A DNA stretch of 56,440 nucleotides, from contig PDPP01000022.1 in the NCBI GenBank assembly GCA_002747515.1, positions 1 to 56,440 of the forward strand. The letters are read 5' to 3'. The DNA is from Candidatus Moraniibacteriota bacterium (lineage in GTDB: Bacteria; Patescibacteriota; Minisyncoccia; Moranbacterales; GCA-2747515). Shown piece after piece: positions 41,814 through 50,008 of the stretch. Position 1 is the stretch's first letter. Every line of letters starts with the position of its first letter. The translations under genes and the position numbers were made by a program. The notes under the pieces were generated by a model. The model searched no databases, had not been told where the DNA came from, and was given only the letters and a program-made list of their open reading frames with translations.

Positions 41814-42389
41814 ATGCGAAAAATCGTTCTTGATATCGAAACACAAAATACCTTTCAAGAAGTCGGTTCCAACGATCCGACAAAACTCGACATTTCACTT
41901 CTCGTCATTTATGACTATAAGACAGAAGAATACCTCACATTTACCGAAGAAAATTTCAATGATCTCTGGCAAATTCTCGAAGAAACTGACCTCATCATTG
42001 GTTATAATTCCAACCACTTTGATATTCCACTTCTCAATAAATATTACCCTGGCGACCTCACAATCGTCGGCAGCCTCGACCTCCTCACAGAAATCAAAAA
42101 CGTCATCGGCCGTAGCATCCGCCTCGACAACATCGCAGAAGCAACTATCGGCGTCGGCAAAAGTGGACACGGGCTTCAAGCAATTGAATGGTGGAAAAAC
42201 GGCGAAATTGACAAAATCGAAAAATACTGTCGTGACGATGTCAAAGTCACAAAAGATGTCTACGAATATGCCATGAAAAATGGCACGCTTAAATACAAAG
42301 ACCTTCTTGATACTGTAGAATTTGATATCGACACGAGCAACTGGGATAAAAAAATATCACAAGCTATCAACTACACATTGCCACTATAA
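41814..42389 (+). CDS. Predicted 3'-5' exonuclease / RNase H-like fold protein
   Basis: 'KIVLDIETQNTF', 'LIIGYNSNHFDIPLLNKY', 'YCRDDVKVTKDVYEYA' Exo I/II/III-like acidic motifs. Confidence 0.82.
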   Translation: MRKIVLDIETQNTFQEVGSNDPTKLDISLLVIYDYKTEEYLTFTEENFNDLWQILEETDLIIGYNSNHFDIPLLNKYYPGDLTIVGSLDLLTEIKNVIGRSIRLDNIAEATIGVGKSGHGLQAIEWWKNGEIDKIEKYCRDDVKVTKDVYEYAMKNGTLKYKDLLDTVEFDIDTSNWDKKISQAINYTLPL

Positions 42390-42410
42390 CAGAAAAAAGA
42401 CCACAGTAGA

Positions 42411-42428
42411 GACGCGATTTATCGCGTC
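42411..42428. repeat. GACGCGAT-TT-ATCGCGTC palindrome (family I), also a plausible terminator
   Basis: Perfect 8-bp arms followed by TTTTTT; related copies at 42643, 46037, 46205 and 47950. Confidence 0.85.
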
Positions 42429-42488
42429 TTTTTTATTATGATTCGTATTCAGTATCCGAATGCTAAAACTTTAAGATTGCACAAAATT

Positions 42489-42517
42489 CTAGATCCCCGC
42501 TTTCGCGGATATGACAT
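42489..42517. repeat. REP-like 'ctagatccccgctttcgcggatatgacat' (family II)
   Basis: Related to copies at 45498, 45541, 45956 and 53528. Confidence 0.7.
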
Positions 42518-42642
42518 AAATAATCTAGATATCTAAAAATCTAATCATCTAGAAATCTACATAATCCCTATCTAATATTTTTTATTTTATGCACTACGCA
42601 CCACTCTCTATTTTCTACATTCCATTTTCCATTCACAAAAAA

Positions 42643-42660
42643 GACGCGATAAATCGCGTC
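42643..42660. repeat. GACGCGAT-AA-ATCGCGTC palindrome (family I)
   Basis: Perfect 8-bp arms, followed by TCTAC as in other copies. Confidence 0.85.
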
Positions 42661-42696
42661 TCTACATGCTACTCGCTACTTGCTATCTACTACAAT

Positions 42697-43611
42697 CTAT
42701 CTCTCCAAATACCGTCGCACACCGATGTAACTGCTCACAAATCCGAGTATCATGCCCAAAACAATCACAACACCCACCACGACCAGCATCGTTTGTCCAT
42801 AAAATGCAGAAATATCGATGTTTTCAATAATCTTTTTTGCAAATGGGTCAGAAATATAGATTGTTAAAATGAGAAAAATCGCTGAAATCACACCGCTTGC
42901 ACATCCATAAAGGATGCCTTCGACAAGCGTCGGAAGCTTTACATAAAGATTTGATGCTCCGACAAGTCGCATAATTTCAAATTCTTTGCGATGTGCATAC
43001 AAGCTCATGCGTATTGTATTGAGTGTAACCAAAACAGCAATTACTCCAAACATCACGCCAAGCACTACTCCAGTATTGCATACAAATGTAATCGAATCAT
43101 AAATCTCATCAATCACAGCTTTATTGCGATCAAGATTTGTGCTCATAATATATTCCTCATACTCCTGATAGAGAAATGTATTAATATTCTCATAATCAGA
43201 AATATCATGTGCTACAATCACAAGCGATGCTGGCAAAGGATTATTTCCAATCATATCAAGTGCCTCTTTAATTTCCTCACTTTCACCTTCACGTGCAAGA
43301 AAATCCTCTAATGCCTGATCTTTAGATATATATGTTACTGATTGAATTTGTTCAATAGATCTTTTTTCCAAATCATTTTTAATCTCAAGGATTTTTTCTT
43401 CATTTACAGTAAAATCAAAATACATGCTCACATTTACACGATCTTGCACCGTATCAATCACATGTAACACACCAAATCCGAGAAAAACTGCCACACCGAC
43501 TAGATACAATGACAGAGACATGATAACTACTGTTGCCAATGTCAACCATTTATCTCGATAAAAATTTCTTACACCCTCGCGCAATGCACGAGCAAGTTTT
43601 ATTGATTTCAT
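42697..43611 (-). CDS. ftsX: Cell-division ABC permease FtsX
   Basis: 304 aa; 4 TM layout; 'NIIRMSLYAHRKEFEIMRLVGAS'-like region; adjacent to ftsE. Confidence 0.92.
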   Translation of the reverse strand: MKSIKLARALREGVRNFYRDKWLTLATVVIMSLSLYLVGVAVFLGFGVLHVIDTVQDRVNVSMYFDFTVNEEKILEIKNDLEKRSIEQIQSVTYISKDQALEDFLAREGESEEIKEALDMIGNNPLPASLVIVAHDISDYENINTFLYQEYEEYIMSTNLDRNKAVIDEIYDSITFVCNTGVVLGVMFGVIAVLVTLNTIRMSLYAHRKEFEIMRLVGASNLYVKLPTLVEGILYGCASGVISAIFLILTIYISDPFAKKIIENIDISAFYGQTMLVVVGVVIVLGMILGFVSSYIGVRRYLER

Positions 43612-43613
43612 AT

Positions 43614-44315
43614 TTATTTTCCACTTATAACATATTTTCCTCTCTCATCATCGCGTGCGATGTGTCCACGATCCATCAAGATTACACGCCGATTGAGCTT
43701 ATCAACAATTGATTTATCATGCGTCGCCAATATCACCGTCGTACCGAAAGAATTGATTTTGAGAAGTAGCTTCACAATTTCCAGTGTTGAAATCGGATCG
43801 AGATTTCCTGTCGGCTCATCCGCAATGAGCACACGCGGTCGATGGATAACTGCTCGTGCCAGAGAGACGCGCTGTTGTTCACCACCACTGATTTGATGTG
43901 GATATTTTTGCCCTTTCTCTCCCATGCCGACAACATGCAAAATATTATGCACTTCTTCTTTGATTTGCGCATCAGAACTGCCATGTACTTCCAGTGTATA
44001 CGCGACATTTTCAAAAACCGTTTTTTGCGGCAACAGTTTAAAATCTTGAAAAACCGTGCCAAAATTGCGCCGAAAATACGGCAACAAACGCCGCTTTGTC
44101 TCTGCAATATCACGTCCGCCAAAAAACACCGCTCCATCACTCGGCATTTCTTCCGCATAAATCATTTTGAGCAAAGTGGACTTCCCTGCACCAGATGCGC
44201 CTACAAGCGATACAAACTCTCCTTGATCAATCTCACAATTGACATTTGCGAGCGCGACAAAACCGTCCGGATATTCCTTTGTCACATTTTCCAATGTGAT
44301 CAGCTTCATGTTCAT
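43614..44315 (-). CDS. ftsE: Cell-division ATP-binding protein FtsE
   Basis: 'FVSLVGASGAGKSTLLKMIY', 'QISGGEQQRVSLARAVIHRPRVLIADEPTGNLDP'. Confidence 0.95.
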   Translation of the reverse strand: MNMKLITLENVTKEYPDGFVALANVNCEIDQGEFVSLVGASGAGKSTLLKMIYAEEMPSDGAVFFGGRDIAETKRRLLPYFRRNFGTVFQDFKLLPQKTVFENVAYTLEVHGSSDAQIKEEVHNILHVVGMGEKGQKYPHQISGGEQQRVSLARAVIHRPRVLIADEPTGNLDPISTLEIVKLLLKINSFGTTVILATHDKSIVDKLNRRVILMDRGHIARDDERGKYVISGK

Positions 44316-44367
44316 TGTATTTTTGTTTATAACGATATATATTTCACTATATCAGTATACCATATTT

Positions 44368-45445
44368 CTATAGTCGTAGAAATGCCATGATAAACGCATC
44401 AATATCCCCATCCAAAACATCCTCCACATGTGATGTCTCATGTTTTGTCCGATGATCTTTGACCATTTTGTATGGATGCAAGACATACGAACGAATTTGA
44501 TTGCCCCATCCGGCATCTGCGATATCACCGCGCAATGCGTTTTTTTTCTGCTCTTGCTCATCAAGATGCTTTTTGTGCAATTTTGCTTTGAGCAGTTTGA
44601 GCGCATTTTCTTTGTTTTGCATTTGCGAGCGTTCATTTTGACACTGTGCTTGGATGCCTGTCGGCACATGCGTCACACGTACCGCACTATCCGTCGTATT
44701 AACACTTTGTCCACCAGCACCCGACGAACGATACGTATCCACACGCACATCACTCATATCTAGTGCAACTTCTGCAATCTCATCAATCACCGGCATCACA
44801 TCCACACGCGCAAAAGACGTCTGTCGCAGATTATCCGCATTAAACGGCGACAAACGCACCAACCGATGTACACCCGCCTCGGCACGCAAATGTCCATACG
44901 CCAATCGCCCCGTGATTTCACACGTCGCACTTTTGATCCCTGCTTCCGCCCCAGACACTTTGTCCAAAATCGTCACAGAAAACCCTTTTTTCTCCGCCCA
45001 CTTAAGATACATCGCTAGAAGCATCTCCGTCCAGCCCTGCGCGTCCACTCCGCCGGCACCGGCAAACAAAGAAATAATCGCACTGTGTTCATCGTATTCA
45101 CCATCAAAAAGCGTCTGCATGTGTAATTTTTCTACAGACTGTTCTACTGCGTGTAATTGTTTTTCCAATTCCGCACGCTCCGCGTCACTCCCCACCATTT
45201 CCGCAAGCGCACACAAATCCGCCAGCTCCGTATCCAACGCATCAAACTGCACAACGTCCTGATGACATGCATCACGCTGCTGCATCACTGATCGTGCTTT
45301 TTCTTGATCATCCCAAAAACCGGTCTCTGCCGATTGCGCATCCAGCGCCACAATCGTTTCACGTTTCTGGGCAATGTCAAAGAGAGTCCTGCAACTGCAG
45401 GAGTTTATCATGTAATGCCGTACATGTAGCGATAAATTCTTTCAT
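44368..45445 (-). CDS. prfB: Peptide chain release factor 2 with programmed +1 frameshift
   Basis: 'RLSPF' and 'SSGAGGQSVNTTDSAVRVTH' (GGQ); frame 1 ATG at 45445 MKEFIATCTALHDKLLQLQDSL, CTT TGA C at 45382..45376, then DIAQKRET in the +1 frame. Confidence 0.93.
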
Positions 45446-45497
45446 AAGACTATAATATCATTTTTCACAATTGTCTTTTTTGTCAATACAGTACCCC

Positions 45498-45567
45498 CTG
45501 GATCCCCGCCTCCGCGGGGATGACACCATCCCAAAACACTGTCATTCCCGCGGAGGCAGGAATCCAG
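45498..45567. repeat. Inverted pair of REP-like elements (family II)
   Basis: CTGGATCCCCGCCTCCGCGGGGATGAC ... GTCATTCCCGCGGAGGCAGGAATCCAG, ~24/27 complementary, 16-nt spacer. Confidence 0.85.
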
Positions 45568-45607
45568 AACTTTTTATTTAACATTTACAACTTACCACTT
45601 AATTTTG

Positions 45608-45683
45608 AGCCATCCATCGGATTCGAACCGATGGCCTGCACGTGGAGTTTATCCGCCTGTGGCGGGAATGTGTTGCTCTGCCA
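45608..45683 (-). pseudogene. 3' portion of a disrupted tRNA (tRNA-Thr-like)
   Basis: ATCGG-TTCGAAT-CCGAT T arm and GGATGGC+T acceptor 3' strand; anticodon arm replaced by CCGCC-ACA-GGCGG palindrome; lacks acceptor 5' strand and part of the D arm. Confidence 0.75.
45652..45683 (-). repeat. 32-bp direct repeat copy 1 (part of broken tRNA)
   Basis: tccgcctgtggcgggaatgtgttgctctgcca, one mismatch to 45807..45838. Confidence 0.9.
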
Positions 45684-45714
45684 AAATCACTTTTAATTTT
45701 TCAGTATTCTTTTG

Positions 45715-45787
45715 AGCCCACAACCGGGATTGAACCGATGGCCTGCACGTTACGAATGTGCTGCTCTACCAGCTGAGCTATGTGGGC
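45715..45787 (-). tRNA. tRNA-Thr(CGT)
   Basis: GCCCACA/TGTGGGC acceptor; D arm GCTCAGCTGGTAGAGC; anticodon loop TTCGTAA; T arm ATCGG-TTCAATC-CCGGT. Terminal A-C mismatch in the anticodon stem. Confidence 0.85.
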
Positions 45788-45806
45788 TGAGACTACGACG
45801 GACTTG

Positions 45807-45838
45807 TCCGCCTGTGGCGGGAATGTGTTGCTCTACCA
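45807..45838 (-). repeat. 32-bp direct repeat copy 2
   Basis: tccgcctgtggcgggaatgtgttgctctacca. Confidence 0.9.
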
Positions 45839-45854
45839 ACTGAGCTAGGATGGC
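45807..45854 (-). pseudogene. 5' half of a disrupted tRNA (tRNA-Thr-like)
   Basis: GCCATCC-TA-GCTCAGTTGGTAGAGC then ACACATTCCCGCCACAGGCGGA; its GCCATCC pairs perfectly with GGATGGC of the 3' portion at 45609..45615. Confidence 0.75.
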
Positions 45855-45955
45855 ACCACCAGTACAGTGTATAAAAAAAATCCATTCTTTGCAATGTTTT
45901 GAATCAGTTATAATCATTGCCATTTTTCTACACATTCACATATTTGTCATCCCCG

Positions 45956-45980
45956 CGAAGGCGGAGAACCAGTATTTTTC
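45956..45980. repeat. REP-like 'gtcatccccgcgaaggcggagaacc' (family II)
   Basis: Similarity to 45498..45567 and 53528 copies. Confidence 0.65.
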
Positions 45981-46036
45981 ACTGTTCACTTTTATTTTTC
46001 CACTGAACTTCCACTTCAATCAAAACACACAAAAAA

Positions 46037-46054
46037 GACGCGATGAATTGCGTC
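46037..46054. repeat. GACGCGAT-GA-ATTGCGTC palindrome (family I, one G-T)
   Basis: Near-perfect arms, followed by TCTATTTTTT. Confidence 0.75.
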
Positions 46055-46107
46055 TCTATTTTTTTATTCGTAACAATACGATGTTAAATTTTTCAAACAA
46101 GCAAAGA

Positions 46108-46266
46108 ACGAAAAATTTTTCACCATTTTGTCAGAAGTCTATATGTAGCCACTACTATACTACGTAGTATAGTAGTGGTAATCCAAAAGTAGAAATACGC
46201 AAAAGAGACGCGATAAATCGCGTCTCTACTATTTGTATATTCATAATGATTCGTACTTTCGTAGGA
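46108..46266. repeat. Composite repeat element, copy A (~159 bp)
   Basis: acgaaaaa..ttttgt..gaagtctatatgt + 30-bp palindrome (46149..46178) + GAGACGCGAT-AA-ATCGCGTCTC (46205..46226) + tttgtatattcataatgattcgtactttcgtagga. Confidence 0.9.
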
Positions 46267-46287
46267 TTCAACTGAATTAGACATAAA

Positions 46288-46321
46288 AAATAGTCCTACA
46301 AGTGTTTCACTTGCAGGACTA
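46288..46321 (-). terminator. Terminator of the 333-aa orphan gene
   Basis: AGTCCTGCAAGTG-aaa-CACTTGTAGGACT then TATTTTTT on minus strand. Confidence 0.88.
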
Positions 46322-46329
46322 AAGATGGC

Positions 46330-47331
46330 TTAAATGGAGAGTCCGACCGAGTTGTCGGGCTGAAAGCGTTTTCGCACTTCAGGATTGTGCCATTTTCTTA
46401 TGACATCCAAAACCAACTTTCGAATATCGGGAAGAGTACCTTGGCAGGAGTAGAAATATAGATTCTTGTAATCATTTTTGGCATGGAAGCTAATCAATGC
46501 ATCCTTGTTCTCCAGCTGGACCTTTCTTATTCCAGCTATTTCATAGACAAGAATTTTTTCGTCTTCACTAAAACTTAGAGAAAATCCTCGAGTGAAGTCA
46601 TTCTCGTAAAGACTTCTCATCCCATTGTCGTAGACTTGCATTTGGAATTGGATGCACATTTCTGCTAAATGACCATTGATACACAAGATATCTATATTTT
46701 TTCGGATAGTTCCTCCAGAGAGGATTGTGTTATTAAGGTGGAGATGCTCGTAAATATTTGATTGGCGAAGCAATTTTCCAAAACCACAGCTTGGCTCATG
46801 ATAGACTGTGATTTTAACTTCCCGACTTTGCAATTCACCAAAACGTCCTCTGGGCACATCATTATTTTTTGTGTCCAGACACCATTCATCGCTTTCCAGC
46901 AAGACAAGGAAGGCTATCTTATCAAAGAGATTAGAGCGGGAATCATGTTTAAAAAAAATATTTCGAGCAAAGACTGGCTCTGATTCTCCGTACTTTTCAT
47001 CCTCGTCACTGTTTGGCCAATGCAAGACTCTTAATACTTGACCATTAGCATCTGTTGCAAAAAGAACATTTTGAGAAGCGCCCACTTGATTTTCCCGATT
47101 TTTTTCCATAGATCTATAACATGAGAAACTACCAGCCAAGCCCCCGTTGAGATTCTGACGAAAAAGAAGTCTGCCATCTGCTACCTTGAATTCGATAGCA
47201 AGTTCGTCGTTATCCTTGAGACCATTTTCATCCATCAAGTAAATCCCATGCTCTCGGGGGTTTTGAAGAACATTAACCGCAAAGGGGAAATTATCAAAAA
47301 AATCCCTATTTTCTTGCACATGCTTTTCCAT
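46330..47331 (-). CDS. Orphan protein of unknown function, 333 aa
   Basis: Intact ORF, SD AAGGAG before ATG, promoter TTGACA-N17-TACCTT, own terminator; no recognised family or TM. Confidence 0.85.
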   Translation of the reverse strand: MEKHVQENRDFFDNFPFAVNVLQNPREHGIYLMDENGLKDNDELAIEFKVADGRLLFRQNLNGGLAGSFSCYRSMEKNRENQVGASQNVLFATDANGQVLRVLHWPNSDEDEKYGESEPVFARNIFFKHDSRSNLFDKIAFLVLLESDEWCLDTKNNDVPRGRFGELQSREVKITVYHEPSCGFGKLLRQSNIYEHLHLNNTILSGGTIRKNIDILCINGHLAEMCIQFQMQVYDNGMRSLYENDFTRGFSLSFSEDEKILVYEIAGIRKVQLENKDALISFHAKNDYKNLYFYSCQGTLPDIRKLVLDVIRKWHNPEVRKRFQPDNSVGLSI

Positions 47332-47403
47332 TTTTTTCTCCTTGTATTTGATTGTTAATTGAGAGGATATATTCCTCGAACTTTCTAATTATTAGAATTT
47401 TAG

Positions 47404-47432
47404 AAGGTAACATACATTACTTATTCTGTCAA
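47404..47432 (-). promoter_or_regulatory. Promoter of the 333-aa gene
   Basis: minus strand TTGACA (47432-47427), N17, TACCTT (47409-47404). Confidence 0.65.
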
Positions 47433-47465
47433 ACAAAAATTCTATCAACATTTTTTGTCAATTTT

Positions 47466-47510
47466 TTTGTATATTCATAACAATTCGTACTTTCGTAGGA
47501 TTATGATGAT
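47466..47510. repeat. Composite-element tail, solo copy C
   Basis: tttgtatattcataacaattcgtactttcgtaggattatgatgat, ~3 mismatches to 47973..48017. Confidence 0.88.
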
Positions 47511-47575
47511 ATTATACGTGCGGTAATTAAAAAGAGTGACGACTATATAGTCACCACTCTTAAAGTCACAATTCT

Positions 47576-47752
47576 CTACTTTACTTTATAAAAAATTGCA
47601 ATGACCAGAGAATCATTTTTTGTCATATTCATCAGCCGTTTCACAATCTCAATCCTTCCAGCATTCTCTTTCAACCATCTATTGACATCTTTTTCGATCA
47701 TATACGGGTCCCCAAAAAACTCATAAAAAACTTTCATTTGTTCTTTTTCCAT
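47576..47752 (-). CDS. Small orphan protein, 58 aa
   Basis: MEKEQMKVFYEFFGDPYMIEKDVNRWLKENAGRIEIVKRLMNMTKNDSLVIAIFYKVK; SD GGAGGTAGGAG; below track cutoff; palindrome at ~47540-47563 downstream. Confidence 0.8.
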   Translation of the reverse strand: MEKEQMKVFYEFFGDPYMIEKDVNRWLKENAGRIEIVKRLMNMTKNDSLVIAIFYKVK

Positions 47753-47804
47753 TCTCCTACCTCCTTTTCAGATTTTGATTTATAGCCTTAAAGAACAACC
47801 AAAT

Positions 47805-47833
47805 ACCATATCAAAACTCATCAGATTTGTCAA
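47805..47833 (-). promoter_or_regulatory. Promoter of the 58-aa gene
   Basis: minus strand TTGACA (47833-47828), N17, TATGGT (47810-47805). Confidence 0.65.
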
Positions 47834-47852
47834 TAGAAACGCGTAGCGCCGG

Positions 47853-48007
47853 ACGAAAAACCTTTCATCGTTTTGTGAGAAGTCTATATGTCTTCAAATA
47901 AAAACCACTACCATACTACGTAGTATGGTAGTAGCACAAAAGTGGAGAAACGCAAAATTTTGCGTCTCCCTTTTTGTATATTCGTAACAATTCGTACTTT
48001 CGTAGGG
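47853..48007. repeat. Composite repeat element, copy B (~155 bp)
   Basis: Same order as copy A: gaagtctatatgt, palindrome ACTACCATACTAC-GTAGTATGGTAGT (47907..47932), ACGCAAAA-TTTTGCGT (47950..47965), tttgtatattcgtaacaattcgtactttcgtaggg. Confidence 0.9.
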
Positions 48008-49264
48008 TTATGATGACATCGCTTCCATCGGTGAAATGGCAGCAGCGCGGCGGGCGGGATAAACGCCAAATGTCACACCGGTTACTACAGAAAAAATCAG
48101 CGCAATACCCACAGCGTGCGTCGGGATATAAAATGCGATTTCATCAAATCCCGCAGCACGAACCGCACTAAACGCCAACAATAAAACAATAACCGTTATC
48201 ACCACGCCAATCAGTGCACCCACACACGCGATCATTACTGCTTCAATCAAAAATTGTTTCATCACATCACTTCTGCGCGCACCAAGTGCTTTGCGGAGCC
48301 CAATCTCTTTGCGCCGTTCTTCAATCGACACAATCATAATATTCATTATCCCGATGCCACCGACAAACAGCGAAATAGACGCCAACGCCAAGAGCAAAAT
48401 ATTCACACCGCCAAAAATCGTGTCAAACATGTCTTGCGCTTCGGTGATTGACATCACAGAAAAATCCGCCTCATCAATGTCATCAATGTCATGCCGTGAC
48501 AATAAAATACGTTTAATGTCGGCAACGGTGTTATCCATACGTGTCGTATCGTGCACTTTAACGCTGATGTAACTGATATAATCAATGTGCAAAAATTTTT
48601 TCTGCAGTGTGGTGTACGGTAAATACACCATATTATCAAACGACATACCAAACATACTGCCCCGATCTTTGAGCACGCCCACGACACGATATTTTTTATC
48701 ATTGAGCGTAATGCGCTTTCCGATAACTGTTTCATCCACCACCGCAAAAAGTTCTGTGGCGATTTCCGACCCGATCACTGCGACATCCGCCGCGACACGT
48801 TCTTCTTCCGATGTAAAAAATCGTCCATAGCGCAATTTGACACCCGGATCAACCTGTGGATTGCTCGCCGATGTACCGAGCAAAATCCCATACAATGATG
48901 CGTCTTTATACTTTGCCAACGCCTGCCCCATCAGACCCACGCTGTAATTGGCGACATTGGGTAGTCGCCCGATAACTTCTGCATCCTCATCTGTCAGTGT
49001 CGTAATCTCCACACCCATCGCCATTTGTGACACATTGGTTGTCGATGCGTGTTCTGTCTCCGGGATAGAAATTTCTACTTGGATTACATCCGTACCAAAC
49101 TGCTCAATTTCACTGGCGATGTATTGTTGTACCGACGTCCCCATCGTCACCACACTCATAATCACAAATACACTGATAATCACGCCCAACAACGTCAAAA
49201 TCGTCCGCATCGTATGCGAAAACATACTTTTTATAGAAATGATCATCAGTCGGAGAATATTCAT
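48008..49264 (-). CDS. MacB/FtsX-type ABC transporter permease
   Basis: 418 aa; 'MRTILTLLGVIISVFVIMSVVTMGTSVQQYI', 'GGIGIMNIMIVSIEERRKEIGLRKALGARRSDVMKQFLIEAV'. Confidence 0.92.
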   Translation of the reverse strand: MNILRLMIISIKSMFSHTMRTILTLLGVIISVFVIMSVVTMGTSVQQYIASEIEQFGTDVIQVEISIPETEHASTTNVSQMAMGVEITTLTDEDAEVIGRLPNVANYSVGLMGQALAKYKDASLYGILLGTSASNPQVDPGVKLRYGRFFTSEEERVAADVAVIGSEIATELFAVVDETVIGKRITLNDKKYRVVGVLKDRGSMFGMSFDNMVYLPYTTLQKKFLHIDYISYISVKVHDTTRMDNTVADIKRILLSRHDIDDIDEADFSVMSITEAQDMFDTIFGGVNILLLALASISLFVGGIGIMNIMIVSIEERRKEIGLRKALGARRSDVMKQFLIEAVMIACVGALIGVVITVIVLLLAFSAVRAAGFDEIAFYIPTHAVGIALIFSVVTGVTFGVYPARRAAAISPMEAMSS

Positions 49265-49285
49265 AACACTACGTGAAAAAAAATA

Positions 49286-50008
49286 TCATGCACTAAATTG
49301 TTGTAAATAGGTCAGTGTTTCATCAAATAACATCTCTTCTTTTCCTTCTTCATCAAAACTGTGTCCTGCGCCATCAATAATGCTATACTCATATGGTACC
49401 GCCACTTTATCAATAATTGCATCCCACCGTTCAGCACGCGGACTACTGCCAGCGCAAATAATTTTTGTTGGAACCTTCATTTTTTCTATCATATCTGCAT
49501 TAGAATTTTTCCATTCATCATACATTTTTGTATTCATAACCTTTTCTACACCTCTTTTTCTGACATATACATTCCTCGTATCATCATATACCCACCCATC
49601 CATATGAGCATCTTCTAGCACAAGTGACGGGTCCCACAATACAACCGCATGCACTTTTTGTGCTGATTGCAAAATGGACGGCCCTCCCAAACTATGCCCC
49701 ACAAGATAGACCTCATCATATTCTGAGCAAAAGTGATCAACAACTGTGTTAATATCCGTTGCATGCGTTGTAATTGTGCAATCAATTAAATTTCTTCCCT
49801 TTTCTTGTGGAGAATATAAATCAAAACGATATGTTGTAAAACCATTTTGTGGAAAAAATCGTGCACCATTAAAAAATAAATGGCGACTTTGCTTACTACC
49901 AAAACCATGCACAAATATTATCAACTTTTTCGACTGTGGCTCTTGCCAGTTGAGTGTACCATGGATGACATGGCCATCATTTGTCGGAATACTAATGCTT
50001 TTTTCCAT
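49286..50008 (-). CDS. Alpha/beta hydrolase
   Basis: 'LIIFVHGFGSKQSRHLFF', 'YLVGHSLGGPSIL', 'ICAGSSPRAE', 'DGAGHSF'. Confidence 0.88.
   Translation of the reverse strand: MEKSISIPTNDGHVIHGTLNWQEPQSKKLIIFVHGFGSKQSRHLFFNGARFFPQNGFTTYRFDLYSPQEKGRNLIDCTITTHATDINTVVDHFCSEYDEVYLVGHSLGGPSILQSAQKVHAVVLWDPSLVLEDAHMDGWVYDDTRNVYVRKRGVEKVMNTKMYDEWKNSNADMIEKMKVPTKIICAGSSPRAERWDAIIDKVAVPYEYSIIDGAGHSFDEEGKEEMLFDETLTYLQQFSA

Follow-up and report, generated by a model that had tools for sequence, protein, structure and literature searches.

The locus lies in a window of 56,440 nt, the whole stretch of DNA that was analyzed, and consists of two composite repeats, A and B, that enclose a 58-aa ORF and a 333-aa orphan gene (Table 1). 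Both copies carry the same parts in equal order and equal orientation, namely a leader, a TACGTA palindrome (p1), a second palindrome (p2) and a tail that we call the T arm, and a BLAST search of A against its own genome aligns it to B at 72% identity (E 1.8e-22). Re-reading of the sequence and BLAST agree with the positions and part order given in the original prediction, and two details that it had singled out are real: p1 differs between A and B by a paired T-A to C-G change, and p2 stays complementary in both copies despite being built from different bases. Read along the minus strand, the locus starts with the end of a macB-like gene, whose stop codon is followed after two bases by the start of B's T arm, and continues with the remainder of B (p2, p1, leader), the 58-aa ORF with its terminator, and a solo T arm, M. 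Downstream of M come the 333-aa gene with its terminator, copy A (T arm, p2, p1, leader), and a degenerate copy, D (broken T arm, p2). M, which is tail only, and D, which retains the second palindrome and a broken tail, are partial copies that the first reading had overlooked; all four copies share one orientation and lie inside a single 2-kb stretch. M matches B at 85% over 67 bases, ~12 of which belong to the end of the macB-like gene, and A at only 64%, and the agreement with B into the gene end points to local copying.

Table 1. Repeats, genes and associated signals at the A/B locus (window coordinates)
Feature	Position	Strand	Remarks
Degenerate fourth copy D: p2 + truncated T arm	46023..46080	+	directly before A, oriented like A
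Composite copy A	46108..46266	+	leader, p1, p2, T arm
A leader	46108..46146	+	39 nt, 87% identical to B leader
p1 palindrome of A	46148..46179	.	core ACTACTATACTACGTAGTATAGTAGT
p2 palindrome of A	46204..46227	.	GTAG-tagged REP type, AGAGACGCGATAAATCGCGTCTCT
T arm of A	46229..46266	-	CCTACGAAAGTACGAATCATTATGAATATACAAAT on minus strand
Intrinsic-terminator-like hairpin of 333-aa gene	46291..46321	-	
333-aa orphan gene	46330..47331	-	
M, solo T arm in the 58-aa/333-aa intergenic gap	47463..47500	-	repeat shared with B spans 47446-47512
Intrinsic-terminator-like hairpin of 58-aa ORF	47532..47561	-	
58-aa ORF	47576..47752	-	
Promoter-like site of 58-aa ORF	47805..47833	-	TTGACA, 17 nt, TATGGT; downstream of B leader
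Composite copy B	47853..48007	+	leader, p1, p2, T arm
B leader	47853..47891	+	
p1 palindrome of B	47904..47935	.	core ACTACCATACTACGTAGTATGGTAGT
p2 palindrome of B	47945..47970	.	diverged, GGGAGACGCAAAATTTTGCGTTTCTC
T arm of B	47971..48007	-	

As had been predicted, neither gene belongs to a recognized family: Pfam, NCBIfam and PHROG all give nothing at a useful score for the 333-aa and 58-aa ORFs. For the 333-aa gene, two of the 384 genomes of the class contain a relative, one at 38% and one at 36% identity; no homologue was found in five congeners, and the gene product has no match in viral contigs. Its predicted structure (pLDDT 33) was too poor for a fold search. Because the congeners yielded no homologue and the genes downstream of the macB-like homologue differ in the three congeners examined, there is no syntenic empty site. 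Nothing shows that the 333-aa or the 58-aa gene moves with the repeats.

The leader is the one part without a family of its own. Beyond B, the A leader has one weak 21-nt match in the genome (C8:14937), which led us to reject a dispersed family, and a degenerate second T arm was rejected because a profile scan of the window gives three T arms and no more; the leader may nonetheless belong to a real unit. On the 45-kb side of the locus, an intact tRNA-Thr (CGU) at 45714-45787 on the minus strand stands between two partial tRNA-like halves (45603-45855). The acceptor arm of one half matches that of the other (GCCATCC / GGATGGC), and the palindrome CCCGCCACAGGCGG occurs in the anticodon region of each. 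Rfam gave this tRNA-Thr as the only credible match over 42000-50000. Another GC-rich palindromic repeat family (CTGGATCCCCGCCTCCGCGGGGATGACA) occurs beside the A/B locus, at 45498-45567 and 45945-45972.

The palindromes p1 and p2

To assess p1, we aligned 21 copies from five genomes (the window's own, G003, G023, G024 and G027), giving 15 pairs for testing. The arms co-vary, with a score of 0.280 vs 0.124 ± 0.016 in shuffled alignments (0 of 500 shuffles) and at most 0.099 in slid controls, a result in which related copies are counted repeatedly, as the copies in one genome tend to have the same p1 variant. Specifically, 88.9% of cells pair vs 80.6% in shuffles, and 35 cells are changed on both sides vs 15.1 in shuffles; two-sided change occurs in 7 of the 15 pairs, a number that alone is not unusual (192 of 500 shuffles). 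The original prediction that the palindromes are held for their folded form is thus borne out for p1, and its symmetry would be kept because the unit that functions, or that is copied, is the folded or palindromic form. Such a unit might be a 3′-end hairpin, or the target of a TrpR-family protein whose gene it flanks; REP-like spread would fit the p1 data as well. p1 offers a clear example, drawn from several genomes, of co-varying palindromes adjoining a TrpR-family gene.

p2 is a short, imperfect palindrome found in many contigs and in relatives, preceded by GTAG in most of the copies listed, with the tag lost in copy B. One copy in G003 (L052) precedes a RAYT-like start codon, as read from the sequence, and one in G004 (L031) lies inside a RAYT reading frame; p2 was not seen around the sole Y1 gene of the window's own genome (L029). 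The GTAG super-family comprises REP elements with RAYT transposases (PMC3733652), and p2 fits these RAYT-associated REPs. We found no literature linking CPR and RAYT.

Two functional readings of the palindromes have to be weighed. In the first, p1 and p2 would be plain 3′-end hairpins (terminators or mRNA stabilizers) whose arms are kept paired by RNA-level selection, their clustering being functional rather than mobile. Most mapped p1 copies indeed follow a gene end by no more than ~120 bases, both palindromes of B have terminator-like scores, and the outer stem positions of p1 vary yet can still pair. Nevertheless, the conserved TACTACGTAGTA core and the genome-shared variants exceed what a terminator needs, many copies lack a T run, one copy (L133) lies between divergent genes, and p2 falls clearly among RAYT-type REPs, so that we regard this reading as possible but unlikely. 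In the second, p1 would be the operator of a TrpR/YerC-family regulator, and A and B would hold two such operators. In three genomes from two families (G000, G003 and G024), a Trp_repressor-family (PF01371) gene has p1 within a few tens of bases on either side, and the number of copies, about 5-8 per genome, is regulon-like. A plausible promoter position is seen in just one or two copies, however, the others being mostly at 3′ ends, and complementary changes outside the fixed core would not be expected from a dimer operator alone, which makes this second reading rather improbable. Where p1 brackets the TrpR-family gene (L126, L122, L145), the layout resembles that of a RAYT gene between REPs.

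The T family and its association with GxxExxY genes

The T arm represents a single arm of a family of inverted repeats, which a T-arm profile detects in 77 of the 131 genomes of the order, in many of them at near ~51 copies, a value at which the score saturates and which therefore means at least that number. The window's own genome has three T copies, all at the A/B/M locus, where the arms are solo and direct rather than facing inward. In other genomes, 29 arm pairs face inward and none outward, mostly around a short loop, and public genomes yield 71 further inward pairs, Bacteroidetes included. An exact search of genome contigs with the window's own T tail gave no match; the exact pattern of the family consensus was matched by over 112 stretches from public genomes, including those of Moranbacteria, Falkowbacteria, Nealsonbacteria, Uhrbacteria and several Bacteroidetes. 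T arms consist of TACRAA units arrayed at 8-10-8 spacing, for which we found no literature containing the unit sequence, and 147 of 173 lie outside ORFs, vs 78% of the DNA being coding. At one locus (L184), three same-direction arms fall within one long open frame, so that T arms can be translated too. No covariation was detected in T arms, and the arms of one element are not more alike than those of different elements, a comparison weakened by one-arm exact-match sampling.

Occupancy could be followed at one conserved site, the rpsP-rplJ gap, six further loci with their two gene hits in the wrong order being left out. After an L10-leader-like terminator, T is present in this gap in four genomes (G039, G063, G072, G067); G034, G051 and possibly G070 have a degenerate T there, and G061, G068 and G069 have none. 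Occupancy therefore varies at this site, and the absences could be deletions.

In about a dozen cases, inward T arms bracket a gene of ~130 aa (L162, L172, L186, L207, L212, L213, L217-L219, L264 and L274, some with weak arms, the last on a Bacteroidetes contig). The bracketed gene belongs to the GxxExxY family, with TIGR04256 at E 4e-29 to 1e-25 and a PF13366 profile match over the cut-off. The two also co-occur across genomes: presence agrees in 105 of 131 (53/24/2/52 for both, T only, GxxExxY only and neither; odds ratio 57, p 2e-15; rho 0.80), and counting by genus gives an odds ratio of 43 (p 1e-6), with both p-values inflated by shared ancestry. No GxxExxY hit was obtained in seven genomes that contain 10 or more T copies. 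The window's own genome likewise has none over the threshold used, and its T arms are therefore most simply relics.

The inverted repeats beside GxxExxY genes are not confined to T. Most of the top 30 GxxExxY loci lack T arms and about half have other inverted repeats; those without T arms among L191-L220 often carry repeats of short iterated units (CTGATT, ACGAAT, CGCGGA), which differ from locus to locus. In the 200 bases on each side of 28 high-scoring loci, the inverted match averaged 16.9 vs 10.1 in shuffled flanks (sd 0.9), and 15 of the 28 exceeded the 95% cross level. At four loci (L205, L208, L203, L206), the GxxExxY domain forms an in-frame part of lepA-, leuS- and recG-like genes, as if it were a translated insertion; these gene names were assigned by eye from the reading frame. 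The GxxExxY protein has no PDB relative and its predicted model (pLDDT 45) was too poor for a fold search; it is a predicted PD-(D/E)XK-type nuclease by family name only.

Together, these observations describe a T/GxxExxY element that is widespread, mobile-like and apparently undescribed. A T arm would be one terminal inverted repeat of this element. In the fuller form, two T arms in inverted orientation would enclose a GxxExxY gene; the short form, which is commoner, would be MITE-like, with an inward arm pair around a loop. The GxxExxY protein might cut DNA and so drive the spread. More broadly, we tentatively suggest, at somewhat less than even odds, that GxxExxY is the active gene of undescribed small mobile elements with inverted-repeat ends of iterated 7-10-base units, of which T would be one branch with MITE-like short forms, present at tens of copies per genome in Patescibacteria and Bacteroidetes, other branches having different iterated ends and some copies lying in frame inside essential genes (lepA, leuS, recG). 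It is quite unlikely that T is mobilized instead by the tyrosine transposase (Y1/RAYT) of many of these genomes: TIR-associated RAYT-like genes are known (PMC3733652) and Y1_Tnp co-occurs with T too (odds ratio 3.4, rho 0.43), but this association is far weaker than that of GxxExxY, Y1_Tnp gives no hit in 11 genomes that contain 10 or more T copies, and T arms bracket GxxExxY genes.

Composite repeats as probable mosaics and their relation to known systems

When A is queried against its own genome, p1, p2 and T are matched separately, on other contigs or at M, and 56 relatives likewise give matches to p1 alone, p2 alone or T alone. No third composite of leader, p1, p2 and T was found in these 57 genomes, so the search for further copies that had been proposed alongside the original prediction returned only single parts. 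Because the parts match singly and the composite was found nowhere else in the genomes searched, the block is a mosaic, and the likeness of A and B as wholes is best read as local duplication. We therefore favor, at roughly 70% probability, a reading in which A and B are intergenic mosaics of three independently dispersed repeats, locally copied and not the ends of a cassette, with T the end repeat of a mobile-like GxxExxY element. A solo T arm, a REP palindrome of the GTAG type (p2) and an almost perfect TACGTA palindrome (p1) would have come to lie side by side next to a locus-specific leader, and this one mosaic would then have been copied locally between transcription units to give A, B and the partial M and D, the copies diverging afterwards.

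The original prediction had instead taken A and B as direct repeats that delimit a cassette, either non-autonomous and mobile or exchangeable, around the 58-aa and 333-aa genes. Each gene is an orphan with a terminator of its own, the 333-aa gene is rare and patchy in the class, T arms stand at each gene boundary, and the interval could be lost or swapped if A and B underwent homologous recombination. In the 57 genomes searched the composite was found only at this locus, however, its component families are dispersed separately, the window's T arms are direct and not inverted, each of the 333-aa gene's two distant relatives occurs alone and lacks T arms nearby, and there is no empty site to compare, which together leave such a cassette very improbable. 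An integron cassette was considered as well; on inspection, the inverse and core sequences seem unlike attC.

Replacing the cassette with mosaics yields a testable account, in which one repeat piece leads to an inverted-repeat family that extends over many Patescibacteria and into Bacteroidetes and that is linked to a common protein family, GxxExxY, without a known role. If GxxExxY moves or homes T elements, this would assign that protein family a function and identify a major origin of the intergenic repeats of reduced genomes.

Comparison with known systems places each part differently. The gene bracketed by T is a member of the GxxExxY family (TIGR04256 / PF13366 PDDEXK_3), although the literature we found names this family in passing, without inverted-repeat bracketing. 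Short T elements share several traits with MITEs, namely terminal inverted repeats that face inward across a small loop, an intergenic position, many copies, and fuller copies with a gene; they differ from MITEs in having no associated known transposase family and in arms that are built as TACRAA arrays with 8-10-8 spacing. p2 resembles the REP/REPIN and RAYT system (PMC3733652) in being short, GC-rich, GTAG-tagged, dispersed, and located by or inside RAYT genes in relatives, whereas p1 and T are not such GTAG-tagged hairpins, p1 flanking a TrpR-family gene and T bracketing a GxxExxY gene. Finally, the composite as a whole resembles BIMEs in that several palindromic repeats are joined in one intergenic block, but BIMEs join one kind of REP in alternating orientation, whereas here three unrelated families are joined and the block is copied locally.
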